Positions 1,713 through 40,644 of a stretch of DNA of 64,000 nucleotides are shown here, one piece after another. The position numbers and the translations under genes are program-made. The stretch comes from Vitis vinifera (Eukaryota > Streptophyta > Magnoliopsida > Vitales > Vitaceae): NCBI RefSeq assembly GCF_030704535.1, contig NC_081823.1, positions 25,236,001 to 25,300,000 on the forward strand, given 5' to 3'. A model generated the notes under the pieces. It was not told the origin of the DNA, did not search any database, and saw only the letters and a program-made list of their open reading frames with translations. Positions within the stretch are counted from its first letter, which is position 1. Each line of letters starts with the position of its first letter.

Positions 1713-4391
1713 TCACTCGGATTGAAAATATGGAGTGAGGTTGTGCATAATGGTTTGATCCTCCCACTCCAATTCATCCCACCATTCTTGGTCTCCCTTG
1801 ATTTTCTCGAATTTCTTGCTCACTCCAGTATTGGAATGAAATGGCAGCTTCCTCAAACTTGGACATCCAGACACATGGATGTGTCTTAAAGATGGAAAAG
1901 GTAGGGCACGTCCATATATACTTCTTAGCTTTGGTAGCCATATTAAAGTGAGAGATATGAGTCTCGAGAATACACCCACATGATCTACTTCAATTTCTAA
2001 AACTTCACTCTTTTCATCATCTATCACTTTTTCCATTGATTTACATGCTGAAACACTTAGAAATTGAAGGCTTGGAGCACAAATAAGCCATGTCAAATTC
2101 AACAATTCACCACATCCGGATATGTCGACATCACAAAGGTTGTTCAAGCATTGGTGCCTTGGGAATTTTGAGTAGACCACCACTTCCTTTTCAAAATTGA
2201 TTTTCACATCTTGCAATTCAAAACAATTTCTAATACGGAGTGTCTCTATATAAAGGGATAGTTGGACCAGGTTCATACGCTCACAACCTAATTGCACCCA
2301 TCTTGTGGATCTTTGCAACTTGTGGGAGTTAAGTAATGTTTGGATGGATGATACACTTGTAAGGTGGATAGATATATCATCAATGTGTTCTAGCTGCTCT
2401 AACTCTTCTAATAACCTTCCTTCATCATCTCCCGTAAAGTCTGACCCTACAATCGTGCTATACATGCTGAACAATTGCAAAGAGGAAAGACTTGATACCA
2501 TTTGAGATGGAAGTGACTTGAGCGAATACATTTCATTCAATATCAAGCACCTTAATTTTTTCAAATTCTTGAGCTCCGCAGGTAAGTATTTTATACTTAG
2601 ACCCGAAAAATTAAGATATTGCAAAGTAACTAAGTTTCCAATCTCCGCAGGTAACTCTGTAAGTTTAAAATTGTTTGACAAGACCAAAACTCTTATAATA
2701 GGCATGTTTGTAAAGAATCTATTTGGAAATGACCGAATAAACTTATGTGATGCCAAAAAGGTGTCCATATTAGGGAAATATGGTGGTTTCCTAAGTTCTT
2801 CAATGTTGGTATCCCACAATGATATCCTCTGTGTCTCTTTCCATTTTTCAACTTCCTGAGCTCTAATCGGTTCAACTCCATCTTTTACCACAAATTTGTT
2901 CTTCTTCTTCCCGTTTTCACGAGCCAACCACAAAGCCATATCACGAATAACATCATGCATCTTCAAATATTTGTCTTTTTCATCTAATGGAGATCTGCCA
3001 TTCTCTAATAGACATGCCAGCTGTAAACTTTTAATAACTTCTTCTCCTTGATTTCTTGCTTGTTGTATGTTGTCATATTCATCCAGAAAACCCTCCCCGA
3101 TCCAAAGTTGTATAAGATTTCGATGAGAGATTTCATAATCCTCCGGAAATAAAGAGCAATATAGGAAACACAATTTGATGGTTTCATCGGGTAGGCTATC
3201 ATAACTGAATGCCAAGCGTGAAAACAGACGATTCTCCATACCTGGAAACTTTGCCGGATAATTCTTCAACATTTTTATTTTTTTCTCCCATTCTTCGGGT
3301 GTTTTTGTTCCCGCCATTGCTCGCCCTATGGTGATGAGGGCAAGTGGTAAGCCGCAACACTCTTTGGCAACCATCTCCGCCAACTTTGGTATATCTGGAT
3401 GAGAATTTATGGTGTCTGCTCCCACCTTGGTCTGAAACAGAGCAAAAGCATCCTCCCATGGGAGACAATTCATTTCAATGCTCTCTGTAACTTCCATATC
3501 TTGGCACACATCTTTAGATCGCGTTGTAAGTACCATCTTCAACTTATCTTGAGGATTGAGAGGAGGAATACCAACTTTGGATAGATCCAGCCGCTCCCAT
3601 ATGTCATCTAACAAAAGCACAAATTTCTTTGTCTTCAGGACATTGAATATTTCTTCTGCCCTTTCATCCTCACTCCTACCTTCCCATTTATCTTGGGGAA
3701 TCTCCACTTTATTGAAAAGAACTCGCTGAACCTTTTCCACATTGGCTGGTCTGGACACAGTCACCCAAATCACTGCATCAAATTCAAGCCTGGTTTTGAG
3801 GAGCTCATTGTTGATCCTGGTCAAGAGGGTGGTTTTGCCCACACCCCCCATTCCATATAATCCGATACTGCTTACCTGCTCTCCACCATCTTGGAGCCAT
3901 TTCCAGACCTTCCCAAACAACAAATCTTGGCCCACAGTCTTTTCAAGCTGCCTCTCCATCACGGGAGGACTAGGCAAAGGTTCAGCAACTACACTGAAAT
4001 TTGAGCCCTCCGTCTTCTTGACCGTCACAGCATCCATCTTTTCAAGTACCATCTTGCCAAGATTGTAGCTAGCGCCACAGTTTTTAGGACAACAGGTTCC
4101 GAGACATTTCTTCTGGATTTCTTCATCACCTTTCGCCAATATTTCCTGCACTTCTTTTTCCATGGCTTCTACTCCGCGGAGCCAGCCATCAACTACACGA
4201 AGATGCTTCTTCTGACGTTTCTCTTCACGTTCCACCCTTTCCTTCACATCTTCGTACAGGTTCTTGAGTTCCTCCATTTCAGTTCTCAAAGAGTTGAGAT
4301 TTTGTGGGAGGTGACGGATGTAAACAGCACGCTTAGCAGTGCAATCCCACAAGCGAGTGGCGGCATCCAGGATGGGGCTCACACAATCCAT
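1713..4391 (-). CDS. CC-NB-LRR (RPS5-type) disease resistance protein, copy 1
   Basis: Single-exon gene of 892 residues, usual for RPS5-like CNLs, which are intracellular immune receptors that bind ADP/ATP and act at the plasma membrane or in the cytosol. Coiled coil at about 1-140 with the run MEELKNLYEDVKERVEREEK; P-loop GMGGVGKTTLL at about 180-190; kinase-2 LLLDDIW near 259; RNBS-B VLTTRS near 287; GLPLA near 347; RNBS-D CFLYCSLFPEDYE near 408; MHD in KMHDVIRD near 478; leucine-rich repeats from about 550 to the end. All nucleotide-binding motifs are intact. The start is the first in-frame ATG (4391), giving MDCVSPILDAATRLWDC, typical of the family; the frame is open for 26 codons upstream but without ATG. 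It is a close paralogue of 19567-22281. Ligand or guardee unknown. Confidence 0.93.
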   Translation of the reverse strand: MDCVSPILDAATRLWDCTAKRAVYIRHLPQNLNSLRTEMEELKNLYEDVKERVEREEKRQKKHLRVVDGWLRGVEAMEKEVQEILAKGDEEIQKKCLGTCCPKNCGASYNLGKMVLEKMDAVTVKKTEGSNFSVVAEPLPSPPVMERQLEKTVGQDLLFGKVWKWLQDGGEQVSSIGLYGMGGVGKTTLLTRINNELLKTRLEFDAVIWVTVSRPANVEKVQRVLFNKVEIPQDKWEGRSEDERAEEIFNVLKTKKFVLLLDDIWERLDLSKVGIPPLNPQDKLKMVLTTRSKDVCQDMEVTESIEMNCLPWEDAFALFQTKVGADTINSHPDIPKLAEMVAKECCGLPLALITIGRAMAGTKTPEEWEKKIKMLKNYPAKFPGMENRLFSRLAFSYDSLPDETIKLCFLYCSLFPEDYEISHRNLIQLWIGEGFLDEYDNIQQARNQGEEVIKSLQLACLLENGRSPLDEKDKYLKMHDVIRDMALWLARENGKKKNKFVVKDGVEPIRAQEVEKWKETQRISLWDTNIEELRKPPYFPNMDTFLASHKFIRSFPNRFFTNMPIIRVLVLSNNFKLTELPAEIGNLVTLQYLNFSGLSIKYLPAELKNLKKLRCLILNEMYSLKSLPSQMVSSLSSLQLFSMYSTIVGSDFTGDDEGRLLEELEQLEHIDDISIHLTSVSSIQTLLNSHKLQRSTRWVQLGCERMNLVQLSLYIETLRIRNCFELQDVKINFEKEVVVYSKFPRHQCLNNLCDVDISGCGELLNLTWLICAPSLQFLSVSACKSMEKVIDDEKSEVLEIEVDHVGVFSRLISLTLIWLPKLRSIYGRALPFPSLRHIHVSGCPSLRKLPFHSNTGVSKKFEKIKGDQEWWDELEWEDQTIMHNLTPYFQSE

Positions 4392-4582
4392 GGAGAAAAC
4401 AGGTGATGGATTGGAGTTGGAGAGGTGGAGAGAAGATGAGCAAGGAGAAAAGTAATAGTGGAATATCACCTCTCTTTTTCCCAGTAAAAGACTGAGAAAT
4501 CAGTGCCGGCCGGAGATTGTGGTTGGAGCCTACGTTGAATGCTATAAAAAATTCATAATCTGTAGATAATACCAATAAATAA

Positions 4583-4740
4583 TGTCATTGTCTTCTATGT
4601 ACAGACTGTGTAAAGATTAATAAAAGACTCACCACTTGTGATACTTAGACTCGTATAAAAAATTAATAAACTGAATACATATTGCCTATAAAAGACTCCA
4701 CCATTTGTGATAAGTCACAATTTTTCTAGGGTAAGGGTAA
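4583..4740. repeat. Single copy of a ~105-bp upstream repeat
   Basis: The run GTCATTGTCTTCTATGTACA begins an approximately 105-bp unit that recurs as a three-copy array at 6509-6775 and once at about 22475 upstream of the second resistance gene. It lies 190-350 bp upstream of the resistance-gene start. Confidence 0.7.
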
Positions 4741-4785
4741 GTTACTATTTATTTCTTTTTATTATATTTATTTAAACTTTAATGG

Positions 4786-4788
<3 letters not shown>

Positions 4789-4869
<81 letters not shown>
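4789..4869. repeat. (TA)n microsatellite, about 40 repeats
   Basis: Uninterrupted TA dinucleotide run of 81 bases. At the same place the other two copies of the block (near 11936 and 22590) have a short TA run or a T tract, so the array expanded only here. Confidence 0.95.
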
Positions 4870-4872
<3 letters not shown>

Positions 4873-5118
4873 TTAGAGCGTTCATAATAGGAAACCCTAG
4901 ATTTTCTTTTTTCTCTTTGAATTTTTTGGATTTCACATGGTATTATAGAGCAAAATTGATCTTTTAATAAAACTTTTGATTTATGATCTCATGGAAGAGA
5001 GTTTAATCTCATACATTTGCAAAAAATGGTCTTTTTATATTCGTTTTATTATAAAATTCTCTTTTGTCATATTTAATTATGGAACATCGTAATGGATGAT
5101 CACATCATTTTTTCCCCA

Positions 5119-5210
5119 TTTGATATGCTATTGAAATAGCTTTTCTAGCTATATTTTTTCCCTATTTGATATGCTATTGAAATAGCTTTTCTAGCTATAT
5201 TTTATGCTAC
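5119..5210. repeat. 46-bp tandem duplication
   Basis: The run TTTGATATGCTATTGAAATA starts at 5119 and again at 5165, a 46-bp period. The homologous blocks near 12200 and 22850 have a single copy. Confidence 0.85.
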
Positions 5211-5790
5211 TCCGCTCATTTCATAAAATATTATTCCTTATTTAATTATAACTACCCAATATTTGGGAGATCCTTTCCCCGGACCCATACGTCTTTCTAT
5301 AGGTTGGATGGTGATCGTTGACTAATATATTATGATATCATGTTGTATATAAAATTCATTCATTCATTTACTTTTAATTTTTATTAGGGGATAAAATACA
5401 TTTAACCTCAACTTATGTTTCATATATTAAGCTTAATTTTTTTCCCCTTTTCCTTTATTTCTTATCCTTTCATTTTTTTTCTCAATCTTTCAAGATCCAA
5501 AAACAATATTGTATTAATCGGTAATATAATGGCTATAATATATTTACATTAATTATGAGAAACTTCGATGGTGTTTGTTTGTTTTTTTTTTTTTTTATTG
5601 AATAGAAAAAGTTTAAATATTTAATTTTTTTATTCAGTTAAAAGTAATTTACTATATCAACTAACATAATTAAAATGAACTTGTTATTCATAGGTTCATT
5701 TTAATTATATGGGACGATATCAACATGTTACTATTAATGAAAAAACCAAATATTTTAACTTTTTCTATTCAATCAAAAAACAAATGAAGT

Positions 5791-6775: not shown

Positions 6776-7491
6776 AATACAAGACAATTCAGAAATAAAA
6801 CTATATAATGCATGTTAGAGTACTTATTTATTTAGAAGTTTTATTTAGTTACTATTTTTCTAGAGTATGGGTAAGGTTGTTGTAGACCCCCATTTTGGGG
6901 CTGATTTTTCTCACCATTTTTGCAGCTCATTTTTTGCCAGGTGTCACGTTTCTAAGTTACTACATGCTATCTTCTGGTTAACTGTTGAAGAATCAGGTGA
7001 ACTTTTGAGAGCCATTGGAAGCTTGACACATGGCTGGAATATTCAGAGGAAACGCATTTTGGCTGTTAGAGGGAGCGTTGCCAGCTGCATGGAGAGGTGC
7101 CTTTTTTTGCCAGAAAAAGATATTTTTGAGGGGTTGTTGGGGAAGATTTTTTTGGAGGGTGCTTTTGGTGGTTGTTTTTGGATAGGGATTTGGGGAGTTT
7201 TTTTTTTTTTTTGGCTTGAGGAATACCAGTTAGGAGGGGAGAGAGTTGTAGGGAGATATTTTTGAGAGGTATGGGTATCCATTGCCGAGGGGAGAGACAT
7301 TTTCTGGAGGGAAGTTCATTTTTCTTGGGTAGTGACAGAGAGAGAGATACAGAGTGTTTTGTTTGAGAGAGATTTTGGCTTGGGAGATTATAGAGGAAGA
7401 GATACAGAGTCAGAGACAAGAAGAGATACGCGTGGGGAAAGCCTTGAAAGAAGAGGGTTTAGGTATTATTTCTGTGGGTTAGCGTTTCGGC

Positions 7492-7556
7492 GGGAAATCG
7501 CTAAGTTGGTTAGAGTCCTGGTCCGTCACGCCAGAAGTCGCGGGTCCCTGTTCTTG
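7492..7556 (+). other. Degenerate tRNA-Asp-like sequence
   Basis: Reads as acceptor, D-arm and anticodon arm of a tRNA. The anticodon stem is CTGGT/GCCAG enclosing loop CCGTCAC (anticodon GTC), preceded by AAGTTGGTTAGAG as D-arm and followed by AAGTCGCGGGTC. The T-loop consensus GTTCGAAT is lost and the 3' acceptor does not pair, so it is a relic and not a working tRNA. Confidence 0.5.
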
Positions 7557-8517
7557 CTGTTTTACTGTTTTAGGTATCATGAGACTCTGTTTTTAATGTT
7601 TGAATGTGTTTGTTGGGGATTTTCACTTGACTCAGCTTTGATTTCTAACCTGTTTTTGTGTCCTCTGCTTTTGGTATTCCATATGTGATATTGGCATTCA
7701 TGATTTGATTTTGTTTTCAAAACTCATTTGAAATCTGTTTTAGCCCATTCTTATATCTGAGCCCATTGATTGATATATGAAATGAGATTTGTGGGGTTTT
7801 TTTCGTTTTCTTCTACTTGTGCCCTTTTTTTTTTTTTTTTGTTTTTTGTCCGTCCCCTGTCTCTAGCATCCGCCCATGGTGTACATCAATTTTCACATCT
7901 TTACTTGAGGAAGTAAAGAACTACAAGAAATGTATTCTCAGTTGGTGAGTATGATGAGTTGCAGCATGTTTGTCAAGTTATGGGGTGTCTGATTCATTTT
8001 GTGGGAGGCTATTCTCGACCAAGAGCATCATTTTGTACACTCCTCTTCCAGTTTTTATTGACTTTTTCAGTTTCCACCTGGTTTGGATAGCAAGGCCACT
8101 GCATCCTTTTACTAGAGAGCGATTTATATATTGAAGACAAACCCACTTTGCGTTTTGGAAGCGTGCTTGATTCAATTCCAGAATAACTTCTCATTGTTTC
8201 TCAAATCACGATTGGAAGAGATATTTCCCAGGGGACGCATGGTATTATCATTCATGGGCAAGAGATCTCCAGATCCCGCTGCAGATGAAAGTTGGAACCA
8301 TTGGCAGTATTGGCAGCTTGACTATACTAGAATCCGAGTTATCAGCTGTTCCAGTGATACTTGAAGAGTGACTATGCTTAACAGATGTCACAGAAAGAAT
8401 TACATATTTGTGAACGGATTGAAATGCAGATGGGATTCCCGTCAATGTGATTATCGGTGGTTTAGTGAAATACATATTTGTTTATTCCCTTTCACCTTTA
8501 ATCACGTGCATGTGTCT

Positions 8518-8867
8518 CATCCCATATCACCTATCCCATGCATGCACCCATAGCCATCAAATCTATTGCTTCACACCCACCAAACCCGCGCCACATGTAC
8601 CCACGACTAATCCATCCCATGCATGCACCCATGGCCATCAAACCCATTGTTCCGTACCCACATCAACCTATCCTACACCCACGGCTGTAACTCATCCCAT
8701 ATCACCCATCCCATGCATGCACCCATAGCCATCAAATCCCTTGCTTGGCACCCACCAAGCCCGCGCCGCATGCACCCACGGCTAATCAGCGCTGCATGCA
8801 TCCATGGCCATCAAACCCACTGCTTCATTCACATCACCCATCCCACACGTACACCATCCTATTCTTG
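8518..8867. repeat. C-rich tandem repeat, two units of about 175 bp
   Basis: CATCCCATATCACC starts at 8518 and again at 8693. Each unit contains two shorter copies of a segment reading about CATGCATGCACCCAT then GCCATCAAA. CATGCATG occurs at 8537, 8618 and 8712, and CATGCA at 8795. The open frames across it are repeat products only. Confidence 0.8.
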
Positions 8868-8889
8868 TCAATGAGATATGTCACCCGCT

Positions 8890-10028
8890 ACCGGCGTCAT
8901 GTGATGAAGGTGGAGCCTTTTGAGAATGAGCAAGTTGCAGCTGCATCTATGGGTACAGTCAAGAATTGGGCAATTTCTTTCGAATACATGGAAATCATTC
9001 TTCCAGCTAACGACAATGAAACGAAACCATGCATGGCGTTTAGCAAGATTAATTTCCCGTCTTTGGCACCTGTGACCCAAGTCTCAACATCCCACAATCA
9101 TGCAGCCTTCGTCATGCAGTCTGGAGAGGCTTCCACTTGTGGAAATTATTCCTCCTTTCGCTGTGGGCATGGAGATACAGTTTGTCCCATGTTCCGGCTC
9201 GACTTTGTTGAAGCACTGAAGGAAGTTCCTTACAAGCAGGTTGTTGCTAGGTTTAGTTTCGCCGCGTTTCTCCCAATAAAAGGCCATGTCTTTGCATGTG
9301 GAATGAACATACATGGTCAGCTTGGTTATGGTGACACTGTAGACAGACGGACACTTAAAATTGTTGAACTACTTGAAGGTGTTGATCCTGTGGTTCAGAT
9401 GGCTGCATGACCAAGTTGTGTCATGGCCGCAAATGATGATGGGACTGCCCACTCTTTTGGGTTTGTGACAAATTTCTGTCTTGCCTAGGATGAACAGCAT
9501 AATGAGCTCTGACCACGTGTAATTCAATCAATTAAAAGAAAGACTGTTCATGTGGTTCTCATCTCTGCTGGTGATGAGCACGTGGCGACACTTGACTCCA
9601 GTGGATTTGTATATACCTGGGGCAAAGGTTATTAGGGTGCATTGGACCATGGTGATGAGATTGGTAAGACTGCTCCTGAGATCTTAAGCAGCCTTAAGAG
9701 CCACCTTGCTGTGCAGGTTTGTGTATGGAAGAGGAAAACCTTCGTCTTGGTGGATACCGGTTCTGCATATGGTCTTGGGCAGATGGGTTTTGGTAGTTTT
9801 GGGTTTCCAGACAGGGGAGATTCTGATAAAGTCACGAGGCCTTGGATCCTTGATAACCTGAGAGGCCACTACATTTCTCAAATGAGCACAGGTCTGTATC
9901 GCACCATTACAGTCATTAATAAGGGACAAGTCTTTGGGTTAGGTGACAATGAAAGAGTACGACTCGGGCACGACACCTTGAGAGGAAGCCCCGAACTTGC
10001 TGAAATTTTTTGTTCAAGAAGCAACTGA
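8890..10028 (+). pseudogene. RCC1-family (UVR8-like repeat) protein, intronless decayed fragment
   Basis: One reading frame over about 1.1 kb encodes RCC1-type beta-propeller repeats: GHVFACGMNIHGQLGYGDT near 9282, SSGFVYTWGKGY near 9597, GSAYGLGQMGFGSFG near 9760 and KGQVFGLGDNERVRLGHDT near 9922. The frame is broken by stops at 9408, 9486, 9510 and 9633 but never shifts. RCC1-like plant proteins serve as nucleotide-exchange or signalling propellers; this copy cannot. The absence of introns and its place inside a transposable element suggest capture by a retro-mechanism. The parent gene is not in this window. Confidence 0.8.
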
Positions 10029-10349
10029 TAATGCAGGCCTTGACTCGAAAAGTTGCAATGAGGACTAGGTTAGGAGCACCCTAGAAGAATATTTTTGTGT
10101 CATGTGGGGAGGTTTCAAGGATTTCTATCCCTAAAGATCGTGAGTCCGGTTCTGTTGAGGATGAATGGAATGTGATCTGGGAAATCCTCAAGTGAACTAG
10201 GGAATCGGTCATATCCTGCGCATTCTATTCTGCATGTATCAATTCGCATGAGGCGAAAACTGTTAGGTTCACACCTTCCTCCACCTCTCATATGCATGGC
10301 ACGTGGCGTTCTCTAGCATGTATAGAAATGGAAGGATGATTTGAAAGTA

Positions 10350-10740
10350 TGGGACAGATTGTTGCTGTTGAATGACTGGATGGAAAGAGGGTCTTCAAGG
10401 CTACTGTGCTGATGGAGAACAATGACTTCTGGTCTATAAGTTTACGCCTCTGAAACCACTGGAGTATCGTCATCTAGATCTTCCACCTAATAAAGAATTA
10501 CTGGATTGGAATATAAGAATGAAAATAGTGGTTGGTACAATCATGAGATTGGAGCACTTGCATGATGAAGCGAGTCCTTCAGTTATTTATGAAGACTTCA
10601 AGTCACCCAATACTTCACTAGAAGAAAGGTCTCACTTCTAGCTTTTCGATTGGGGCTTGCAAAGTCAGTGTTAGATGCCTATGCATATGTGACAGCATGA
10701 GTAATAGGAACTTTTGGACATGTGGCTTCACAATAAGTAC
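10350..10740 (+). pseudogene. Receptor-like cytoplasmic kinase (class VII, PBL/PBS1-like) fragment
   Basis: Pieces of a protein kinase domain in order: GQIVAVE (VAIK-like strand) near 10350; YCADGEQ, a stop, then LLVYKFTPL near 10402-10455; LDWNIRMKIVVGT near 10503; LEHLHDEASPSVIYEDFKSPN near 10552, which is the catalytic loop with HRD replaced by YED; a DFG-like DWGL near 10650; and IGTFGHVA near 10704, matching the usual MGTYGY. There is at least one frameshift after DWGL and several stops. It follows the RCC1 fragment on the same strand inside the same element and has no introns. It is non-functional. Confidence 0.75.
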
Positions 10741-11885
10741 CGAGGTGCAGTTGATTGTGATGCTTATCATGTGACTGATCTGAGACCTGAAGAGTATGGT
10801 ATTTCATCATGCATTGAGGGCAGCTTGAAAACAGTGATATCACCCATCCTTTTCCAACTAAGATAGCGGTGTTGAACGCAAATGGAGAATGGGTGCTTCC
10901 CAATGACTCCTCAGTGGCCACAAGCAGAGGGGTGAACAGGGTCCCACAACACTGTTGTCCGAGTTGATTATTATTCAAGCATCCATTGTCATGGGATGGC
11001 CACCCTTAATCCGGATGCCATCACCACACTTCATCCTCTTTGATTTCGAAAACAATTTTTCAAATCTCTTTTCCTCTAATAATTTTCAGGATTTTAGTTT
11101 TTCATTAAAATGACTTAAAATCTCCAAATTTTTTCATCCTTAGCCTTTTTCTTAGGCTTCAAAATAATACGTTCTTCAATAAAATTTGCTGTCATTTTCT
11201 TTGGCATGCAATCTTCATAATCTCTTCTATTTTGAAATGTTTTGAAATAAAATCAGAATCAAATTTCGTAATTCCAAGTGATGGAATTTATGAAATTAGT
11301 TCAAGCAAAAATAAATGGGCTTTGGTGGGGGCCCGACATGTGATTTCCTAATTGATTGATTGATTGATCGGCTTGTTTGCCATGCATGATTGATTTGCTC
11401 TGTTCCATGATATGTATATAATTATTTTGTGGTTGTACACTAATCTCATTTTCTTAAAAGCGTGTTGCGGTTAGTGGTCCAGGTATACGTCTACTCTCTT
11501 TTTGGTCATTATCTATGTATTTTCTGATTCCCGTATGTGCATGATAGATTAGGATATCCATTGATTTTTCTATTGATTGCCACGTCAGTTTCATCCTATT
11601 AGTAGAGACTTGACTTCAGGGACTTAGAGGGGTGCTACGGTTCATACCGTACCTTCCCAATAAATAACCTGATCCCCAAACCCGATCCGATTTTTCATAG
11701 ATCACCTTTTTTCCAAAATAAGGAGTCGTACTTAGGGTTTTCTTTCTTATTTTGTTTGCCCTTTAAAAAATAAATCAAAAATAAGTGGCGACTCCAAGTC
11801 ATTTTTAATTAATAAATCATTTTTTAAATAAAAATTGAGTTCGCCATTGAGTGAGAAATGCATGAGCTGAAATGTGGGGTCCACA
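10741..11885 (+). other. Non-coding 3' part of the 5.0-kb element
   Basis: No recognisable coding sequence. Contains four GATT repeats near 11351 and ends with an LTR-like stretch (about 11590-11885). Confidence 0.45.
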
Positions 11886-13500
11886 GTTGTATTTTTTTTC
11901 CTTTTATTATATTTATTTAAATTTTAATGGTATTGTATATATATATTTTTTTAAATGTTCATAATAGGAAACCCTAAATTTTCTTTTTTCTCTTTAAATC
12001 TTTTGGATTTCACATGGTATATATCATAGCAAAATTGATTCTTTAATAAGACTTTTGATTTATAATTTCATTGAAAAGAGTTTAATCTCATACACTTGTA
12101 AACAAAGTTTATTCATATCCGTTTGATCGTGAAATTCTCTTTTGTTGTATTTAATCATGGGATATCATAATGGGTGATCACATCACTTTTTTCTTATTAG
12201 ATCCGTTATTAAAATAGCTTTTCTAGTTATATTTTCTACTACTCCGCCCATTTCATAAAGTATTCTTCCTAGTTTAACTACAATTACCCAGTATTTCGAA
12301 GATCCTTTCCCCAAACCCATACATCTTTTTATAGGTTGGATGGTGATTGCTGGCTGATATATTATGATATCATGTTATATATAAAATTCATTCATTCATT
12401 TATTTTTAATTTTTACGAGGGGATAAAATACATTTAAACTCAAACTTATGTTTTATATATTATGCTTAATTTTTTTTTCCCTTTTTCTTTATTTCTTATC
12501 CTTTCCATTTTTTCACGTCTTTCAAGATCCAAAAACAACATTGTATTAATAGTAAATAAGTGGATATATAGTAATATAATGGCTATAATATATTTACATT
12601 AATTATGAGAAACTTTGATGGTGTTTGTTTTTTTATTGAATAGGAAAAGTTAAAATATTTTATTTTTTTATTTAGTATAAAGTAATTCGCTGATATCAAC
12701 TAATATAATTAAAATGTACTTATTATTCATAGGTTCAGTTTAATTATATTGGATGATATCAATATATTACTATTAATGAAAAAATCAAATACTTTGATTT
12801 TTTCTATTCAATCAAAAAACAAATATCACTTTCTAAATTATATTTGGTTTAGAAAAGTATTAAGAAAAAAAATATTTTAAAAAAATTATTCATGATTGGT
12901 TGTAAACTGAAAAATAAAAAAATAAAATCAATTATAATTAAAATTAATAAGAAACTTATATGTTTTAAAATTATTTAATTTTTATATAAAAAATTAAAAT
13001 AAATAAGACCAATTTAAAATAACATATAAAAAATAATTTATTGACTTTAAATTTATTTTTTATTTTCCTTCACTTTTTCTTTTATTCTATTTTTTCTACC
13101 TCTTTATTTTTTATGATATTTTCTCTCTCTTTTTTTCCAAAATAAGAAATAGTCATAATTTTTTGTTATCCCAAAATTGGTCAATTATGATCCAATACTG
13201 TGAAAGCAAAATTTGTAGGCGGTGGGTGGATGACATATAAGCTTCACTAGTTGTTTGATCCACATGTGTAAATTTTAAAAATTTATTGAATATGACTTAT
13301 CAATTTTTGTGGAAATGACATATAATCTTCACTAGGATATGGAAATTTCTAATAAGCATCCTTCATTTTTCATAATATTACGAGCATGCCACTAAAATTG
13401 TCAAGAAGTAAATTCAACATAAAATTCCAAAAAAAAAAAAAAGAGGTCAATCAGTATTGGAACTACAAGACCCAATGCCAGTCCCAAAACTAAGAAAAAC
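11886..13500. repeat. Resistance-gene upstream block, second copy in unit 1
   Basis: Homologous to 22540-24190 along its whole length and to 4740-5790 in its first kilobase. It starts with the right-hand GTTGT target duplication of the 5.0-kb element. Very AT-rich, with no genes. It leads directly into the 3' end of the aminotransferase pseudogene, as in unit 2. Confidence 0.8.
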
Positions 13501-15141: not shown

Positions 15142-15255
15142 TTAACAAACAGAGGAAAGCTTTCGTGCACCAATTTAAGAAGAAGGCCTCACAGCAAATG
15201 GAGGATATAAAAAAGAGGAGTCGAATATTATGTTACAGTCGGGAGTAGGGGTCTC

Positions 15256-15438
15256 CAAAAAGCCCGCGGCCCGCGGCCCGCTTTAGGCCCGGCCCGGCCC
15301 GAGCTCGTTTATGGGCGGGCCGGGCCGCGGGCCTAAATTTAGGCCCGGCCTGGCCCGTAGGCCCGCCCTTAGGCCCGGCCTGGCCCGTAGGCCCGCCCTT
15401 AGGCCCGGCCCGTAGGCCCGCCCTTAGGCCCGCCCATT
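15256..15438. repeat. GC-rich subterminal array of the hAT element, left end
   Basis: Repeated GGCCCGGCCC, GTAGGCCCGCCCTTAGGCCC and similar units in an otherwise AT-rich element. A counterpart with the same CCCGGCCCG core sits at 18273-18392 by the other end. Such subterminal repeats are the usual binding sites of hAT transposases; that role is inferred here. Confidence 0.8.
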
Positions 15439-15646
15439 TAAAAAAAAAAACTACAAAAATAAAAAGTATTAAAAAAAATATTCATTTCAAAATTTTATTC
15501 ATTGAATGTATAATTACATTTAAAAATGTGGGAAAATTTTACATCACTACAAAATAAATACATCCCAACTAGGTTGGCACCTATTTATTTGTCAATCATT
15601 TGTATTTTTCAACCACAAAAAATAAAAATAAAAATATAATATACAT

Positions 15647-17659
15647 TTAGTCATTATTTTCTGGCGGTGATGGCGAACTATCATGCATCCATGAAGATCT
15701 TGATAGTTTTAAAGATTCCATATCGGCAAGCATCTCTGTTTCTCGAATGGAATCGTACATCCTTTTTTCTGCAATTTCCCAATCTTTTACACATATCCCT
15801 GCTTCAATAACGTCTGGCGCTAAGTTGCATCGTTTTTTACTAATAACTCTTCCACCTGCACTAAAAGCAGCTTCTGATGCAACTGTACTCACAGGAACTG
15901 TTAGTACATCACGAGCAATTATAGAAAGCACAGGATATTTGTGTTGATGTGATTTCCACCATATTAAAATATCAAAATCTTCTTGATCTTCAAATGGAAT
16001 TATATCAGTATTAAGATATTTATCTAAATCAGATGTATTATTTGGAGAACTATTTGTTGTCTTTTTTCGACTTTTCAACATTTCTAGAGCTCCTTTATAA
16101 AAAGATGAGGAGTTTGTAGATGTAGGTGGTAATTTATTAGTATTAATATCATTACCATATTTTTCTTTATAATAGTTATATAAATTATATAATAATGAAT
16201 TTATTTCATTTTTAATTTCTTCAATTTTTATTTGGTCATTAAAATAAATAATTGTTAACCATTCATCCAAAGCTTCAAATTTCAATCTAGGGTCCACAAT
16301 TAAAGCAATATAAAAAATTAAAGGTATTTCTCCCCAATATTTTCTAAATTTTTCTATCATTGCAAATATTGTATCATTAAATATTTCAAAACTTAAATAT
16401 TTTTGAAGTACAATAAAAATATTAGTTATTTGCATAATAACTCGATTTGAAGTTGGATAATATACACCACAAAAAATGTTTGTTGAAGTATCAAAAATTT
16501 CAAAAAGATCTCTTAAAAGATCCGCAACATGCCAATCATAATCACTTAATGTATAAATATCTGCATCAGAATCATTGTTAAGTAATTGTATTTCATATAA
16601 TTCGACTACTTTTCTATATTTTGTAATATTTTGTAAAAGTTTATATGTGGAATTCCATCTAATGGCCATATCCAAATTTATATTTTTTCTTTTCATATTT
16701 AACATTTTGCAACAATAAAAAAATAATTCATGTTTTGCTTGAGAACTATTAATACTATATGCAATGCCTCTAATTTTTTCCAATGTATCATCAACATTTT
16801 TTAATCCATCCTTTACAATTAAATTTAAAATATGTGCACAACAACGCACATGAAATATTTTAGCATGATCATCTTTTACTTGCCAATATAGTTTTAGTCT
16901 ATTTATTGTTGCATCATTATTAGCAGCATTATCTAATGTTACTGTCAATATTTTATCACGAAGGCCTAAATTTATAATTTCTTCATTTATTAAAGTTGCT
17001 ATATTTTTACCACTATGTGGAGCATTTATTAATTTAAATGAAATTATTCTTTTATTTAATTTCCATTCATTATCAATGTAATGAGCAGTTATACATAAAA
17101 AACCAGTGTGAGTTAAAGATGTCCAAATATCAGATGTTAAACAAATATTTCCTTCAAAATTTGCAAAAAAAATTTTTAAAATTTCTTTTTATGTATAAAA
17201 TTTTTTCATAATATCTCTTTTAACTATATTTCCAGACCAACCTTTAAATTGAGGATTAATACCTCGTTGAATTGTTCCTACAAAATCATGAGTTTCCATC
17301 ATGTTAAAAGGTTGTTCTGCTCTTATTATATAATCAATCATTTCTTCACGACAGTTAGATTCATCATAAGAAAATGTTTTTAAATTTCCACTTTCATTTT
17401 TACCTAATTGCATATAATTTCTAATATCTACATTATTTTTAGTTTTACAATTTTCGTGATGTCTTTTTAAATGACTTGTGCCTGCATTTGAGCCACCAGT
17501 AAGAAATTTATTACAAATTTTACATTTTGCTTTTATTTCTTTTTTATTATTTTCTAAAATTATTTCTACTCTATCAAAAAAATTCCATATATTTGAAGTA
17601 AATTTTTTGTTTGATGATATTTCATCACATGGACTAGATGAAGAAGCACTTGTTATCAT
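15647..17659 (-). pseudogene. hAT transposase (BED finger / hAT dimerisation), one nonsense codon
   Basis: A single frame of 671 codons starting at ATG 17659. The N-terminal BED zinc finger is CKICNKFLTGG...HLKRHHENC at about residues 45-70; the RNase-H-like central region follows; the C-terminal hAT dimerisation domain has WWKSHQHKYPVLSIIARDV and VSTVASEAAFSAGGR. One in-frame TAA at 17189-17191 (codon 157) separates BED finger and catalytic part; frame is kept on both sides with no other stop. It is therefore recently inactivated or the stop is a tolerated polymorphism. A full-length copy elsewhere would be needed to move this element. Confidence 0.92.
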
Positions 17660-17966
17660 ATTATAATTATTGATAAAATATTATGCCAAAAATAATAAAG
17701 TAATAAATATAAAAAAAAATGTAACAAAAAAATAAAGTAGTAGGGGTGAAGTATGTTACTCAATTAGAGAACCGATGCAGAAATTCCTAGCAAATTTGAA
17801 CTCTTGGAGCCACCAATGCTTGTTTTGCACCACCAACAATATTGTATAATTTGAGGGAAAAATAAAAGAATTTGAAATATTGTAGAATGTGAGAGAAATA
17901 GAGAGAGAAATAGAGAGAATTTGATGAAAAAATGAAAAGGGAGAAGATGTATTTATAGGAAGGTTT

Positions 17967-18004
<38 letters not shown>

Positions 18005-18006
18005 GC

Positions 18007-18084
18007 CATGTGACCGTTGCCCAACGGTCACATGGCAGCTAGGAGCATGGATTGGAGCTCCAACGGTCACATGACCGTTGGAGC
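18007..18084. repeat. Two adjacent hyphenated palindromes sharing AACGGTCA
   Basis: 18007-18034: CATGTGACCGTTG, spacer CC, then its exact reverse complement. 18057-18084: GCTCCAACGGTCA, spacer CA, then its exact reverse complement. Both arms are 13 bp and perfect. They lie about 350-425 bp upstream of the transposase start, so they may be operator or transposase sites, or form hairpins in the leader. Confidence 0.9.
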
Positions 18085-18158
18085 CTTTAATTTTTTTTAA
18101 AAAAATAATATACTTTATGTTATATATATATAACTAACTCTAACATTTAACACAAAAG

Positions 18159-18229
18159 TAATGTGGCTCAGTTGGTTAGAGCCTTTACTTTGAACCATGA
18201 GGGGAGGGGTTCGAATCCCCCCCTCTCCA
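18159..18229 (+). other. tRNA-like sequence with perfect Pol III A and B boxes inside the hAT element
   Basis: TGGCTCAGTTGG (18164-18175) fits the A-box consensus and GGTTCGAATCC (18208-18218) the B-box, with 32 bp between them. The middle has ACTTTGAACC like a Gln(TTG) anticodon loop, and the T arm GGGGTTCGAATCCCC is perfect. The 5' acceptor strand does not pair with CCTCTCC at the 3' side, so I do not call a working tRNA. Confidence 0.65.
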
Positions 18230-18272
18230 TTCATTTCTAAAGCCATTTTGGCTTATTTAAAAAAGCCCAAGG

Positions 18273-18392
18273 CTTGGCCCGCCAGCCCGCCCCCAGCCCG
18301 GCCCGCTGGCCCGGCCCGCTGCCCGCCCCCAGCCCGCCCCGCCCAGCCCGTGGGCCGAAGATTTTTCCCTGGCCCGGCCCGGCCCGCCCGTT
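18273..18392. repeat. GC-rich subterminal array of the hAT element, right end
   Basis: Repeats of CAGCCCGCCCC and GGCCCGGCCCG just inside the right inverted repeat, the counterpart of 15256-15438. Confidence 0.8.
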
Positions 18393-19309
18393 GGAGACCC
18401 CTAGGTCGGGAGCAATTTTTATCGTCGACATAGTTGTTATTTGCAACGAATATGTTTCCTGCTATAGTGAATAAAGCCCCACTATTTAGGCTAATAATAA
18501 CTTGATGGTATTGCCAGTATTTTGGGTATTCACTTAGAATTTTTAAATATACAAATAAAGAAAATCAATGCATCAGAATAGTGCACTTTACCAGGCATTG
18601 ACAAAATAAATGATCACAAGTTGTTCTTTTGTTTACATAATTATGATTAGGATGACTTATGCACCCCTATCTTGGCAAGCTTTACAGGGCTAAGTACTGA
18701 ACATAATCAGGACTGGACAACACTTTTTCATGGAACGCACTTATGTTCTTGAGCACCCTAGGACGCCAAATTATGAACATAAGGAAGGTAAATCTCTTGC
18801 CATCACCCATCACTAGTTTTCCACATCAATTCGCTCATCTATGTGCTCATCATTAGAATCACCCAGACAATTACTCTTACACAGGGATTTCTATTGTGGG
18901 ACAGTTTTAGCAACTGAAACTCGAGCTTCCTTTCAATACAAAAGTGTTGAATCCATATTTATCATCATCTTCAAGTTTTATGGCACAGGCTGACAAGAGA
19001 CTAATGAAAGTAAAACAAAAGCTTTGACAAGATAATCAGAGCTCGGAGCGCAAGTTTGTAGACATGGAAGCTCATGTGCAGTGGAAAAGATGAAAATGGC
19101 TGGTGAAGATCCAACAATGCACTAATTGAGGCTTGTGGGATTGGAGAAGATTGTCGCATCTTCCTTTGAGCTTCTGCATTTTGGATTTCGTGGAGATTAA
19201 GGGATAGTTTCCTGGAAAAGGAGGTTGGAGAGAAATACTTGATGTTGTCAAACAATATTTACAAATAAAATCTATTTTTGCATTTTTCTACAAGAATTTT
19301 ACCTGGCAG

Positions 19310-19566: not shown

Positions 19567-22281
19567 TTACTTGTAATGAGACGAATCGGATTGAAAATAT
19601 GGAGTGAGTTTGTGCATAATGGTTTGATCCTCCCACTCCAATTCATCCCACCATTCTTGTTCTCCCTTGATTTTCTCCAATTTCTTGCTCACTCCAATAT
19701 TGGAATCAAATGGCAGCTTCCTCAAACTTGGACATTGAAACACACAGATGTATCTTAAAGATGGAAAAGTTAGGGCACGTCCATGTATACTTCTTAGCTC
19801 TGGTAAACAAAACAAAGCGAGAGATCTGAGTCTCGAGAATACGCCCAAATGATCTACTGCAATTTCTAATATTTCACTCCTTTCATCATCTATCACTTTT
19901 TCCATTGATTCACATGCTGAAACACTTAGAAATTGAAGGCTTGGAGCAAAAATAAGCCATGTCAAATTCAACAGTTCACCACATCCAGATATGTAGACAT
20001 CACAAAGGTTGTTCAAGCATTGGTGCCTTGGGAATTTTGAGTAGACCACCACTTCCTTTTCAAAATTGATTTTCACATCTTGCAATTCAAAACAATTTAT
20101 AATACGGAGTGTCTCTATATAAAGGGATAGTTGGACCAGTTTCACATGCTCACAAGCTAATTGTAGCCATCTTATGGATCTTTGCAACTTGTGGGAGTTT
20201 AATAATGTTTGGATGGATGATACATTTGTAAGGTCGATGGATATATCATCAATGTGTTCCAACTGCTCTAACTCTTCTAATAACCTTCTTTCATAATCTC
20301 CCATATAGTATGAGTTTGCAGTGTCATAACTACTAAACAATTGCAAAGAGGAAAGACTCGATACCATTTGAGATGGAAGTGGCTTAAGAAAATACATATT
20401 TTTCAATATCAAGCACCTTAATTTTTTCAAGTTCTTGAGCTCCATAGGTAAGTATTGAATACTTGTCCTCGACAAATTAAGATATTGCAAGGTAACTAAG
20501 TCTCCAATCTCCTCAGGTAACTCCTTAAGTTCAAAATTGTTTGACAAGTCCAAAACTCTTATGATAGGCATGTTTGTAAAGAATCTATTTGGAAAGAATC
20601 TATTTGGAAAGAATCGAATAAACTTACATGATGCCAAAAAGGTCTCCATATTAGGGAAATATGGTGGTTCCCTGAGTTCTTCAATGTTGGAATCCCACAA
20701 TGATATCCTTTGTGTCTTTTTCCATTTTTCAACTTCCTGAGCTCTAATCGATTCAACTCCATCTTTTACCACAAATTTGTTCTTCTTCTTCCCGTTTTCG
20801 CCAGCCAACCACAAAGCCATATCACGAATAACATCATGCATCTTCAAATATTCGTCTTTTTCACCTTCTTCATTTACGGGAGATATGACATTTTCCAATA
20901 AACATGCAAGCTGTAAACTTTTAATAACTTCTTCTCCTTGATTTCTTGCTTCTTGTATGTTGTCATATTCATCCAGAAAACCCTCCCCGATCCAAAGTTG
21001 TATAAGTTTTCGATGAGAGATTTCATAATCCTCCGGAAATAAAGAGCAATATAGGAAACACGATTTGATGGCTTCATCGGGCAGGCTATCATAACTGATT
21101 GCTAATACTCGAAACAAATCCTCCTCTGTACCTGGAAACTTTGCTGGATAATTCTTCAACATTTGTATTTTTTTCTCCCATTCCTCGGGTGTTTTTGCTC
21201 CCGCCATTGCTCGCCCTGTGGTGATGAGGGCAAGTGGTAAGCCGTCACACTCTTTGGCAACCATCTCCGCCAGCTTTGGTATATCTGGATGAGAACTTAT
21301 AGTGTCTGCTCCTACCTTGGTCTGAAACAGAGCAAAAGCATCCTCCCATGGGAGGCAATTCACTTCAATGCTCTTGGTAGCTTCCATCTTTTGGCATACT
21401 TGTTTAGATCGCGTTGTAAATACCATCTTCAACTTATCTTGATGATTCAGAGGAGGAATACCAACTTTGGATAGATCCAGCCGCTCCCATATGTCATCTA
21501 ACAAGAGCACAAATTTCTTTGTCTTCAGGACATTGAATATTTCTTCTGCCCTTTCATCCTCACTCCTACCTTCCCATTTATCTTTGGGAATCTCCAATTT
21601 ATTGAAAAGAACTTGCTGAACCTTTTCCACATTGGCTGGTCTGGACACAGTCACCCAAATCACTGCATCAAATTCAACCCTGGTTTTGTGGAGCTCATTG
21701 TTGGTCCTGGTCAAGAGGGTGGTTTTGCCCACACCCCCCATTCCATATAATCCGATACTGCTTACCTTCTCTCCATCATCTTGGAGCCATTTCCAGACCT
21801 TCCCAAACAACAAATCTTGGCCCACAGTCTTGTCCAGCTGCCTCTCGATCACGGGAGGAATAGGCAAAGGTTCAGCAACTACACTGAAATTTGAGCCCTC
21901 CCTCTTCTTTACCGTCACAGCATCCATCTTTTCAAGTACCATCTTGCCAAGCTTATAGCTAGCGCCACAGTTTTTAGGACAACAGGTTCCGAGACATTTC
22001 TTCTGGATTTCTTCATCACCTTTTGCCAATATTTCCTGCACTTCTTTTTCCATGGCTTCTACTCCGCGGAGCCAGCCATCAACTACACGAAGACGCTTCT
22101 TCTGACGTTTCTCTTCACGTTCCACCCTTTCCTTCACATCTTCGTACAGGTTCTTGAGTTCCTCCATTTCAGTTCTCAAAGAGTTGAGATTTTGTGGGAG
22201 ATGACGGATGTAAACAGCACGCTTAGCAGTGCAATCCCACAAGCGAGTGGCGACATCCAGGATGGGGCTTACACAATCCAT
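19567..22281 (-). CDS. CC-NB-LRR (RPS5-type) disease resistance protein, copy 2
   Basis: Single-exon CNL of 904 residues, close paralogue of 1713-4391. Start is the first in-frame ATG (22281), again giving MDCVSPILDVATRLWDC; the frame stays open upstream without ATG. Motifs are intact: P-loop GMGGVGKTTLL at about 180-190, LLLDDIW near 259, VFTTRS near 287, GLPLA near 347, CFLYCSLFPEDYE near 408, KMHDVIRD near 481, then LRRs. Differences from copy 1 concentrate in the LRR half: a five-residue repeat FFPNRFFPNR (15-bp duplication at 20581-20610), three extra residues before KMHD, and a C-terminal tail extended by five residues. Both copies appear capable of coding functional receptors; divergent LRRs suggest different recognition, which is inference. 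Confidence 0.94.
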   Translation of the reverse strand: MDCVSPILDVATRLWDCTAKRAVYIRHLPQNLNSLRTEMEELKNLYEDVKERVEREEKRQKKRLRVVDGWLRGVEAMEKEVQEILAKGDEEIQKKCLGTCCPKNCGASYKLGKMVLEKMDAVTVKKREGSNFSVVAEPLPIPPVIERQLDKTVGQDLLFGKVWKWLQDDGEKVSSIGLYGMGGVGKTTLLTRTNNELHKTRVEFDAVIWVTVSRPANVEKVQQVLFNKLEIPKDKWEGRSEDERAEEIFNVLKTKKFVLLLDDIWERLDLSKVGIPPLNHQDKLKMVFTTRSKQVCQKMEATKSIEVNCLPWEDAFALFQTKVGADTISSHPDIPKLAEMVAKECDGLPLALITTGRAMAGAKTPEEWEKKIQMLKNYPAKFPGTEEDLFRVLAISYDSLPDEAIKSCFLYCSLFPEDYEISHRKLIQLWIGEGFLDEYDNIQEARNQGEEVIKSLQLACLLENVISPVNEEGEKDEYLKMHDVIRDMALWLAGENGKKKNKFVVKDGVESIRAQEVEKWKKTQRISLWDSNIEELREPPYFPNMETFLASCKFIRFFPNRFFPNRFFTNMPIIRVLDLSNNFELKELPEEIGDLVTLQYLNLSRTSIQYLPMELKNLKKLRCLILKNMYFLKPLPSQMVSSLSSLQLFSSYDTANSYYMGDYERRLLEELEQLEHIDDISIDLTNVSSIQTLLNSHKLQRSIRWLQLACEHVKLVQLSLYIETLRIINCFELQDVKINFEKEVVVYSKFPRHQCLNNLCDVYISGCGELLNLTWLIFAPSLQFLSVSACESMEKVIDDERSEILEIAVDHLGVFSRLRSLALFCLPELRSIHGRALTFPSLRYICVFQCPSLRKLPFDSNIGVSKKLEKIKGEQEWWDELEWEDQTIMHKLTPYFQSDSSHYK

Positions 22282-22474
22282 GGAGAAAACAGGTGATGGA
22301 TTGGAGTTGGAGAGGTGGAGAGAAGATGAGGAAGGAGAAAAGTAATAGTGGAGTATCACCTCTCTTTTTCCAAGTAAAAGACTGAAAAATCAGTGCCGGC
22401 CGGAGATTGTGGTTGGAGCCTACGATGAATGCTATAAAAAAATTCATAATCTGTAGATAATACCAATAAATAAT

Positions 22475-24190
22475 GTCATTGTCTTCTATGTACAGACTGT
22501 GTAAAGGTTAATAAAAGACTCACCACTTATGATACATTGTGGTTGTATTTTTTTCTTTTTATTATATTTATTTAAATTTTAATGGTATTGTATTTTTTTT
22601 TTAAATGTTCATAATAGGAACCCTAAATTTTCTTTTTTCTCTTTAAATCGTTAGAATTTCACATGGCATCATAGCAAAATTGATTTTTTTAATAAGACTT
22701 TTGATTTATAATTTTATAAAAAAGAGTTTAATCTCATACACTTGCAAACAAAGTTTGTTCATATCCGTTTGATTGTAAAATTCTCTTTTGTCGTTTTTAA
22801 TCATAGGATATCATAATGGATGATTGTATCATTTTTTTTTCTTATTTGATCCGTAATTGAAATAATTGTTCTAGTTATATTTTCTACTACTCCGCCCATT
22901 TCATAAAGTATTCTTCCTACTTTTCTAGTTATACGGAATATCCTTTCCCCGAACCATACATCTTTCTATAGGTTGGATGGTGATCACTAGCTGATATATT
23001 ATGATATCATGTTAGTATATAAAATTCATTCATTCATTCATTCATTTACTTTTAATTTTTACTAGGGATAAAATACATTTAATAGGAGATAAAATGCATT
23101 TAAACTCAAACTTATGTTTCATGTATTATGCTTAATTTTTTTTCCCTTTTTTTTTTATTTCTTATCCCTTTTTTTTTTTTTTTACGTCTTTCAAGATCCA
23201 AAAGCAACAGTGTATTAAAATCGTAAATCAATGGATATATAGTAATATAATGGTTATAATATATTTACGTTAATTAGAAGAAACTTCAATGGTGTTTGTT
23301 TTTTTATTAAATAAGAAAAGTTAAAATATTTTATTTCTTTTATTTAGTTAAAAATAATTTATTGATATCAATTAATATAATTAAAATGAACTTCTTATTC
23401 ATAAGTTCAATCTAATTATATTGAATGATATCAACAGATTACTATTAATGAAAAAAAATCAAATATTTTAATTTTTTCTATTTAATAAAAAAACAAATAT
23501 TACTTTCTAAATTATATGTGGTTTTGAAATGTATTAAAAAAAGAAAAAATATTAAGAAAAATAATTTCTTTATGATTGGTTGTAAATTGAAAAAAAAAAT
23601 CAAATATAATTAAAATTAATAAGAAACTAATATATTTTAAAATTATTTAATTTTATATAAAAAAATTTAAAATAAATAAAACCAATTTAAAATAACATAT
23701 AAAAAATAATTTATTAACTTTAAATTTATTTTTTTATTTTCATTCACTTTTTCTTTCCTTCTATTTTTTCTATCTCTTTACTTTTTTTTTTTTTGATATT
23801 TTCTCTCAATTTTTTCCAAACTAAAAAATAGTCATAATTTTTTGTTTTTCCAAATTTGCCTAATTATGATCTAATATTGTGAAAGCAAAATTTGCATATG
23901 GTGGGTGGATATCATATAAGCTTCACTAGTTACTTCATCCACATATAAAAATTATTAAAAAAATTAATTGAATATGACTTATCAATTTTTGTGGAAATTA
24001 ATAGCTGAATTGACGATCCAACAAGGGTTTTAGAAGTATATGGAAATTTCTAATAAACATCCTTCATTTTTCATAATATTACGAGCATGCCACTAAAATT
24101 GTCCAGAAGTAAATTCAACATAAAATTCCCAAAAAAAAAAAACGAAAAGGTCAATCAGTATTGGAACTACAAGACCCAATGCCTGTCCCA
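22475..24190. repeat. Upstream block of resistance gene 2 (single copy)
   Basis: Contains one copy of the ~105-bp leader repeat and the AT-rich block that is present twice in unit 1. It gives the empty site for the 5.0-kb element. No genes seen. Confidence 0.75.
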
Positions 24191-24263: not shown

Positions 24264-27200
24264 CTACTTTGAATTGCTCCCATCAAGTGCTGGAAGAGAC
24301 CCGGAAAGAACCTCAGCTGCCAACTCCAACTCCTCTTCTGTTATGATCAATGGAGGCACCAGCCTCACAACATTCCCCTTTCCAGAGGTGAGCACCAGAA
24401 GGCCAGCTTCTTGACAGGCAACCACCAGCGGCGAGGCCTGGACGTCAAGCTCAATCCCAACAATGAGCCCAAACCCACGTACTTCTTTCACATGTGGGTT
24501 ATGTCCCAACTTCTGGGTTAAAATTTGCTTCAGGTATTGGCCCTTCTTGGCGACGCTGGCCAAGAAGCTGGGTTCTGAGATTTTTTCAAGGACAGCAAGA
24601 GCAGCGTTGCAGACAAGGGGGCTGCCAGCAAAAGTGCTTCCATGGTCACCAAAGTTTATGGCAGAAGCAACTCGTTCGGTGACCAGTACAGCACCGATAG
24701 GTAGGCCTCCAGCAAGAGGCTTGGCTAGTGTCATTATGTCAGGGAATACACCATAGGACTCATGAGCCCAGAGGTGCCCAGTTCGGCCTAGACCACATTG
24801 AACCTATAGAACAGGATCAGAACATGATCAAGATAGGAAAATTGAACAAATAATTAAGGACAAAAAGTAGGAATTTGGTTTAAAACAGAAGGCTGTTGGA
24901 GCTACAAACAAAATGAAACAGATTATTCACACAGAATAAATCTCAAATGCAGTCTCATCACCTTTGGACACTTCTGCTTTTCAAAGACAGAATCCTCTAC
25001 CATTTTTCATTCTAGTTGGGATTCAGCAAACAATGTAGTGTGCTTTTATGTATTAATTCCCTAACTGCATGATAAATGGAAACTGGATTCTGACAACAGC
25101 TTGTTTTTTATTTCAATTCATATTGGTTTGGGAATTGGAGTTTGGAAGAAAAAAACACCTTCACCTCACTCATTTAAACATAAAAGCAATAATGGCGATT
25201 TAGGGATCCATCTATAGAATTCCTATCTTTTTTGTATCTTTTCATGCAGCAAGTATTTTAATTTTTCTTTTTTCCTTTTTAATTTCTTATGGGGTTGGGA
25301 GTGCAAACAATTCTTCCTAGTCTAGACATCATCCCAATATCTTCTGGAAAACATTATTCATTAGCGAAGTAGTGAAGCAGAAAGTTTCTATCTGAAATGA
25401 GTTGAGGCCTAGCAGTTAAGTGGACATCTAAAGAAGGTAAACCAAGAGACACCAGATTGAGGCAAATACCCAATATGCGCACCAAACGTAAAATCTATGA
25501 AATCAAATCTAAGGGGATTGAAAAATGACTTTCGCAGATATTGTTTTCTGATATAATACAGTAAGTTTTAGGAAAATCTGACCATAAAATAAAATCCTTT
25601 CATGCATGTACTGAAAAAATTATCTGCAATTTGGCTGTTTCCAATCAAGCAATATAGGTAACATGATTGAACATATAGGATCAGTTTGAGCAACTATATT
25701 TCATCACTGAAATGTTTATTACCTCATCGAAAACAAGGAGAACCCCAGCATCATCACAAGCACTTCGCAGAAATTGTAAAAATTCCTTTGTTGCACTGTA
25801 TATACCCCCTTCTCCCTGGATGGGTTCCACAAACACTGCTGCGGTTTTGCCTTTCTGAATCAGCTCTTTTGTAGCTTCTATATTTCCATACTCTACAAAA
25901 GTGACTCCAGGCATAACAGGTTCAAAAGGTGATCGATAATGCTCCTTGCTGGTCAGAGCAAGAGCACCCATGGTCCTCCCATGGAAGCTATTTGTAAAAG
26001 CTATGAAATCCGTGGGAGGCTCCTTTGCATCCGGATGTGAGTGCCGCTGAAACTTCCTTGCAAATTTTATGGCAGCTTCATTTGCTTCTGTTCCAGAATT
26101 TGAGAAAAACACACGATCAGAAAAAGAACAAGCCACTAGACGCTTGGCAAGCTCCACCTGCAGCAAAATCATAACTGCTTAACAAACAGAGGAAAGGTTT
26201 CGTGCACCAAATTAAGAAAAAGGCCTCACAGCAAATGAAAAAAGAGGAGTTGAATATTATGTTACAGAGGAAAGGTTTTATCGTTGATATAGCTGTTACT
26301 TGCAACGAATATGTTTCCTGCTATAGTTTCAGTAACGAACCATTTTTGCTATTATAAGTTTTGACTTTTCAATATGATGAAACAAGACAAGTTATTTTGA
26401 ACTGCACAAAGGCAAACACTTTTAGAAATATTCCAATGGCTTTTGGATCTAGAGTGACATGAAAAAGGGAAGGAAATTTGTATAAAATAAAGTTCTCTCC
26501 TTTCTGCTATTAACATAGGCTTTGCCACCTAATTGACTGTAGTAAGCCAAATTTCTTCATGGGGAGGGTCTCAAATACCTTGCATCTGATTGAATTAGTG
26601 AATAAAGCCCCACTATTTCGGCTAATAATAACTCGATGGTATTGCCAGTATTTTGGGTATTCAGTTAGAATTTTTAAATAAACAAATAAAGAAAATCAAT
26701 GCATCACAATAGTGCACTTTACCAGGCATTGACAAAATAAATGATCACAAGTTGTTCTTTTGTTTATATAATTATGATTAGGATGACTTATGCACCCCTA
26801 TCTTAGCAAACTTTACAGGGCAAAGTACTGAACATAATCAGGACTGGACAACACTTTTTCATGGAACGCACTTATGTTCTTGAGCACTCTAGGACGCCAA
26901 ATTATGAACGAAAGGAACCTAAATCTCTTGCAATCACCCATCACTAGTTTTCCACATCAATTCGCTCATCTATGTGCTCATCATTAGAATCACCCAGACA
27001 ATTACTCTTACACAGGGATTTCTATTGTGGGACAGTTTTAGCAACTAAAACTCGAGCCACTCTGAATCAGTCAAATTCTGCAGGTTGTTAGTGTGTGCTG
27101 TGGAAGTGTATGGCAGTTCAAATTTATGCATTTTCTTTTTCTGGAAATCACAATGCTTTCTGTGAGAAGCCTGAACCAAACATCAACCCTAGCTCAAGCT

Positions 27201-40639: not shown

Positions 40640-40644
40640 GAGAC

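Follow-up and report, generated by a model that had tools for sequence, protein, structure and literature searches.

The stretch of grapevine (Vitis vinifera) DNA analysed here, hereafter the window, comprises 64,000 nucleotides (contig NC_081823.1 of assembly GCF_030704535.1, positions 25,236,001 to 25,300,000) and contains a 5005-bp insertion, on the plus strand, in which pieces of several host genes can be recognized. The insertion begins with TGTAGACCCC and ends with GGGGTCCACA, so that it has TG...CA ends, and an exact GTTGT duplication stands on both sides of it. Coordinates of all features are given in Table 1.

The insertion and its target site

With the borders in mind, we joined both flanks with a single GTTGT and aligned this reconstructed empty site to the window, using 500 shuffles as control. 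At the paralogous site in unit 1, 84 columns align across the junction with a score of 106, compared with 38 for the left flank alone, 76 for the right flank alone, and a mean of 22 and a maximum of 40 for the shuffles. Since the pentamer at this junction differs from GTTGT, the site backs the borders of the insertion, not the pentamer. The site in unit 2 reaches a score of 96, yet only the right flank and GGTTGT match there, while the left flank by itself reaches 18 (shuffle mean for the whole site, 25). Sequence and flank alignment thus confirm the borders, the TG...CA ends and the duplication proposed in an earlier note on this DNA. The empty site which that note placed in unit 2 is found there for the right side, whereas the site matching both flanks is the one in unit 1.

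The insertion lies in duplicated surroundings, where both 4880-5785 and 11886-13300 have a counterpart at about 22.5-24.0 kb. As the element is missing from two of the three paralogous sites, the insertion most simply postdates the duplications of its flanks. A perfect TA tract of 40.5 copies (4789-4869) and a 46-bp tandem repeat (5107-5203) lie close to the paralogous empty site.

Host-gene fragments within the insertion

The longest fragment belongs to the RCC1 family, for which 201 proteins matched; the best 120 of these were considered, and 107 of them, with a length of 470-505 residues, were aligned. The best match among the best 120 of 201 is P0001 (492 residues). Positions 9018-10010 follow its residues 147-477 without a gap and in one frame over 331 codons, with 250 identities (76%) and four stops, and its residues 475-491 continue in a different frame up to 10053. 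We computed conservation from the aligned proteins other than P0001-P0007 and used 10 orthologues for comparison. The 81 differences from P0001 show no preference among five conservation bins (5/24, 19/64, 20/75, 21/84 and 16/84), and 16 of 84 invariant columns are changed, versus 0-1 of 84-85 in the orthologues, which carry 40-84 differences each; one orthologue with 84 differences leaves all 84 invariant columns intact. Because the differences ignore conservation, the RCC1 fragment is, judging by its sequence, free of protein-level constraint, and a functional RCC1 domain was rejected on the even spread and the altered invariant columns.

Counted from amino-acid-changing codons only, at least 85 substitutions have occurred in 9018-10010, comprising 60 transitions and 25 transversions, with G>A plus C>T accounting for 38 versus 22 in the reverse direction. 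This stretch holds no insertion or deletion (indel), and one lies just downstream. Two local non-coding alignments show 0.18-0.19 indels per mismatch, or 0.10-0.13 without pure A/T runs, from which about 9-16 indels would be expected. The apparent indel deficit is suggestive, not firm. Such substitution-rich, indel-free decay would fit copying-type errors.

In tandem with the RCC1 fragment and on the same strand, as the earlier note had stated, lies a kinase fragment, whose firm part is gapless over 89 codons and identical to a Nelumbo CDL1-like protein at 47 of them. Its best PDB match is PBL2 (E 1.5e-13), Pfam Pkinase stays below its cut-off (E 0.0052), and reading by eye suggests an internal loss of about 25 residues. 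Further upstream, a SABATH fragment (Pfam E 6.9e-19) shares 67 of 88 residues, over 8029-8292, with a jasmonate O-methyltransferase-like protein of Vitis riparia; two stops interrupt this part, and the upstream piece (7982-8029) sits in another frame. Downstream of the kinase, a 44-residue piece resembles beta-ketoacyl-ACP synthase (KAS), with an NCBIfam E of 0.012, far below the model cut-off, and a PDB E of 0.23. Pfam was negative for it and its whole frame matches none of the NCBIfam families; the call was helped by what we take to be the plant KAS I motif. All fragments are on the plus strand. By these matches the insertion draws on at least three host-gene sources, with KAS a probable fourth. 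The two captured sources of the earlier note are both present, and SABATH, which that note had missed, adds a third to them. As to the remark in the note that two sources in one element are uncommon, three are known from maize Bs1.

No intron-sized gap was seen in the RCC1 or kinase stretches, in keeping with the previous description of both as intronless. In cotton, RCC1 genes are split into 3-16 exons (PMC6479978), and 69 of 72 RLCK-VII genes have 4-7 exons, the full range being 1-8 (PMC10494381). Birch SAMT has five exons (PMC7544025). The available part of a paper on the grapevine RCC1 family gave no usable intron positions (PMC13259460). By analogy with the exon counts from cotton and birch, the gapless stretches would agree with capture of spliced RNA. 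The proportion of processed pseudogenes reported for V. vinifera is high next to that in four other plants (PMC7935947), so that other retroposition routes are also possible.

Table 1. Features of the insertion and its surroundings (positions in the window)
Feature	Position	Strand	Basis or remark
Whole insertion	6881..11885	+	begins TGTAGACCCC, ends GGGGTCCACA; inverted at 9/10 positions; probable solo long terminal repeat (LTR)
Target-site duplication GTTGT, left copy	6876..6880		flank sequence
Target-site duplication GTTGT, right copy	11886..11890		flank sequence
SABATH (Methyltransf_7) fragment	7982..8292	+	residues 130-233 of relative; frame change near 8029
Tandem repeat region	8516..8848	+	self-comparison: 163-bp match, 85% alike, with shorter internal repeats
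RCC1-family fragment	9018..10053	+	residues 147-491 of P0001; frame change after 10010
PBS1-like RLCK-VII kinase fragment	10340..10733	+	firm 10393-10659, weak either side
KAS fragment, probable	10750..10833	+	28 residues matched
TATATAA, possible LTR promoter (U3/R border)	11415..11421	+	string match only
AATAAA, possible LTR poly(A) signal	11659..11664	+	string match only
Paralogous empty site, both flanks	4713..4796	+	flank alignment; pentamer not conserved
Paralogous site, unit 2	22541..22594	+	right flank and GGTTGT only

Origin of the insertion

The TG...CA ends, a signature of retroviral integrase, and the 5-bp duplication together point to retroviral-type integration, the duplications made by LTR retrotransposons being 4-6 bp long. 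No retroelement domain was found by Pfam on six frames (stops as X) at E <= 0.1, as expected from the earlier note, which had seen no retroelement proteins; the sole minus-strand match, to a zinc finger, falls short of its cut-off (E 0.021). Self-comparison of the element revealed neither terminal direct repeats nor an LTR pair, and TGTAGACCCC and GGGGTCCACA are not repeated within it when up to one mismatch is allowed. A full non-autonomous LTR element of the LARD, TRIM or Bs1 kind would share the ends and the duplication, and host-gene capture is known from Bs1. However, the two LTRs of one element are identical at insertion, and LTRs changed beyond recognition are unlikely beside an exact 5-bp duplication. 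An LTR-flanked element was thus rejected for its missing paired direct repeats, and we regard this reading as highly improbable.

The missing LTR pair and the terminal inverted repeat would also suit gene capture in Pack-TIR style by a non-autonomous DNA transposon that has short inverted repeats and makes a 5-bp duplication, and several gene pieces on one strand do resemble transduplication. Yet we know of no plant superfamily of DNA transposons that makes 5-bp duplications (Mutator makes 9, hAT 8, CACTA 3 and Harbinger 3), the ends are those of retroviral integration, and DNA-level capture usually retains introns, whereas no intron-sized gap is seen here. This makes a DNA transposon quite unlikely. 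A Pack-MULE was rejected, given a 10-bp inverted repeat and a 5-bp duplication instead of long terminal inverted repeats and 9 bp. Similarly, a Helitron as the whole 5005-bp unit was rejected in view of the TG...CA ends and the GTTGT duplication, as Helitrons have 5' TC and 3' CTRR ends and make no target duplication.

In the absence of terminal direct repeats, the term LTR-type is valid only on the view that the 5 kb as a whole form a single LTR. We thus consider it probable that the insertion is a solo LTR with spliced gene pieces in it, from a Gypsy family with large LTRs (Ogre/Tat/Athila type); this would explain both the missing LTR pair and the missing polyprotein. The earlier reading as gene capture by a non-autonomous LTR-type element accordingly survives as regards LTR-style integration and host fragments, but not in its LTR-internal-LTR layout. 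TATATAA followed by AATAAA near the 3' end would give the order expected of U3-R-U5, as far as strings can tell. Among plant LTR retrotransposons surveyed, 93.4% are flanked by 5-bp duplications; LTRs reaching about 5 kb, together with tandem repeats in enlarged non-coding parts, are seen in many of the largest elements outside the chromoviruses (PMC6317226). The insertion resembles Ogre, Tat and Athila in the 5-bp duplication, the length of about 5 kb and the tandem repeats, and differs in its captured gene pieces, which the available part of that source does not mention. The Gypsy lineages best represented in V. vinifera are Athila and Ogre (PMC10845522). The Gypsy assignment of the element itself we infer. 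Its tandem repeat region, seen by self-comparison, was not listed by Tandem Repeats Finder at score 50.

A solo LTR could also have received its gene pieces from a nested element, e.g. a Helitron, so that they were never part of a replicating LTR. Plant Helitrons typically carry multi-gene cargo on one strand, and the gene pieces do lie centrally, at about 7.98-10.83 kb. Against this, the fragments look spliced, and self-comparison revealed no inner pair of ends, though no search was aimed at inner duplications or Helitron ends; we consider nested cargo unlikely.

For the solo LTR with captured mRNA pieces, the following course may be envisaged. Template switching during reverse transcription would have joined spliced host mRNAs to element RNA close to the 3' LTR, and the captured pieces would have become part of the U3 region and been copied thereafter within both LTRs. 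The internal region of the copy at 6881-11885 would then have been lost by LTR-LTR recombination, and its cargo would have decayed without protein-level constraint, as tested on the RCC1 piece.

Several observations weigh against this interpretation. The solo LTR was reached by elimination, with neither a second copy nor a full-length element nor an LTR consensus for comparison. The promoter and poly(A) strings are weak, as a further TATA-like string occurs at 8125 and AATAAA occurs nine times in the element, and a 3' hairpin (GGAGTCG...CGACTCC) was dropped because it is no more stable than shuffled sequence (z -0.85). P0001 is the closest relative of the RCC1 fragment among the best 120 of 201, which does not prove parentage, and the intron comparison is one at family level, drawn from cotton and birch genes. 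Finally, the indel ratios of two other duplicated alignments, gene-like open reading frames (ORFs) included, are lower (raw 0.06-0.14, and about 0.04-0.05 once A/T runs are removed) and predict about 4-12 indels, so that the indel argument is moderate.

A typical LTR-internal-LTR layout is that of Bs1, from which the insertion differs by having no LTR pair and by pieces that would lie within the LTR. Bs1 contains pieces of a plasma-membrane ATPase, a xylan endohydrolase and a beta-1,3-glucanase, and like the insertion it combines LTR-type integration with three unrelated host sources and no full-length captured gene (review PMC13317346). Host sequence on LTR retrotransposons is also known from rice and sorghum, where an example element has paired LTRs, a primer binding site and a polypurine tract and many captured genes are expressed (PMC3726574), in contrast to the missing LTR pair and the unconstrained RCC1 piece here. 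Capture of host genes by plant LTR elements is thus established (PMC13317346), and capture inside the LTR, not between LTRs, would be a variant of it. The available literature on capture in LTR elements and solo LTRs yielded no case of three or four sources inside an LTR, and the available parts of PMC13317346, PMC3726574, PMC7935947 and PMC10845522 no description of this element, neither of which is proof of absence. Literature searches with sequence strings of the element and with the label AT3G15430 of the RCC1 relative found no papers.

It is conceivable, though we would not quite call it probable, that the LTR acted as a capture device, in which three or four spliced mRNA pieces in U3 lengthened it to about 5 kb. 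If so, each new insertion and solo LTR would spread the same array of host exons, on one strand and just upstream of the promoter. Part of what makes LTRs grow in the large Gypsy families of plants could then be host mRNA.

A chimeric gene model and further features of the window

The public protein P0121, named 'Serine/threonine-protein kinase PBS1 [Vitis vinifera]', also carries RCC1 domains and consists of stretches of the RCC1, kinase and downstream parts of the element that are nearly all identical to the locus (85/85, 58/60, 36/38, 26/27 and 11/11, besides a short piece with 14/19). One further match is over-extended, with its first stretch identical to the locus. On these identities P0121 is a chimeric gene model built out of pieces of the element itself or of a copy nearly identical to it. 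The protein may represent this locus as read in a different assembly, and P0121 as an independent second copy is unsupported. By themselves these matches would point to V. vinifera or a near relative as the most likely source of the window. Should the proposed capture hold, the exon arrays spread by solo LTRs would end up as false genes in annotation.

Among minor features of the element, self-comparison revealed a self-complementary 35-bp stretch near 11801-11835. A tRNA-like stretch near 7490-7560, noticed by eye, was dropped, as ARAGORN made no call and Rfam gave no support (one run returned only two snoRNA matches, with E above 1). The two end patterns had no exact match among viral contigs, a collection that is uninformative here.

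Elsewhere in the window, two 343-bp direct repeats (40643-40985 and 44901-45242), 97% identical and about 4.6 kb end to end, have the look of an LTR pair from a young LTR retrotransposon. Compared with unit 2, which is empty near 26267-26276, a further insertion of about 3.2 kb occupies about 15239-18416; by eye only, its minus-strand ORFs (15647-17188 and 17189-17680) are hAT transposase-like. Likewise by eye only, the paralogous minus-strand ORFs at 1713-4499 and 19567-22389 (928 and 940 residues between stops) resemble CC-NBS-LRR resistance genes.

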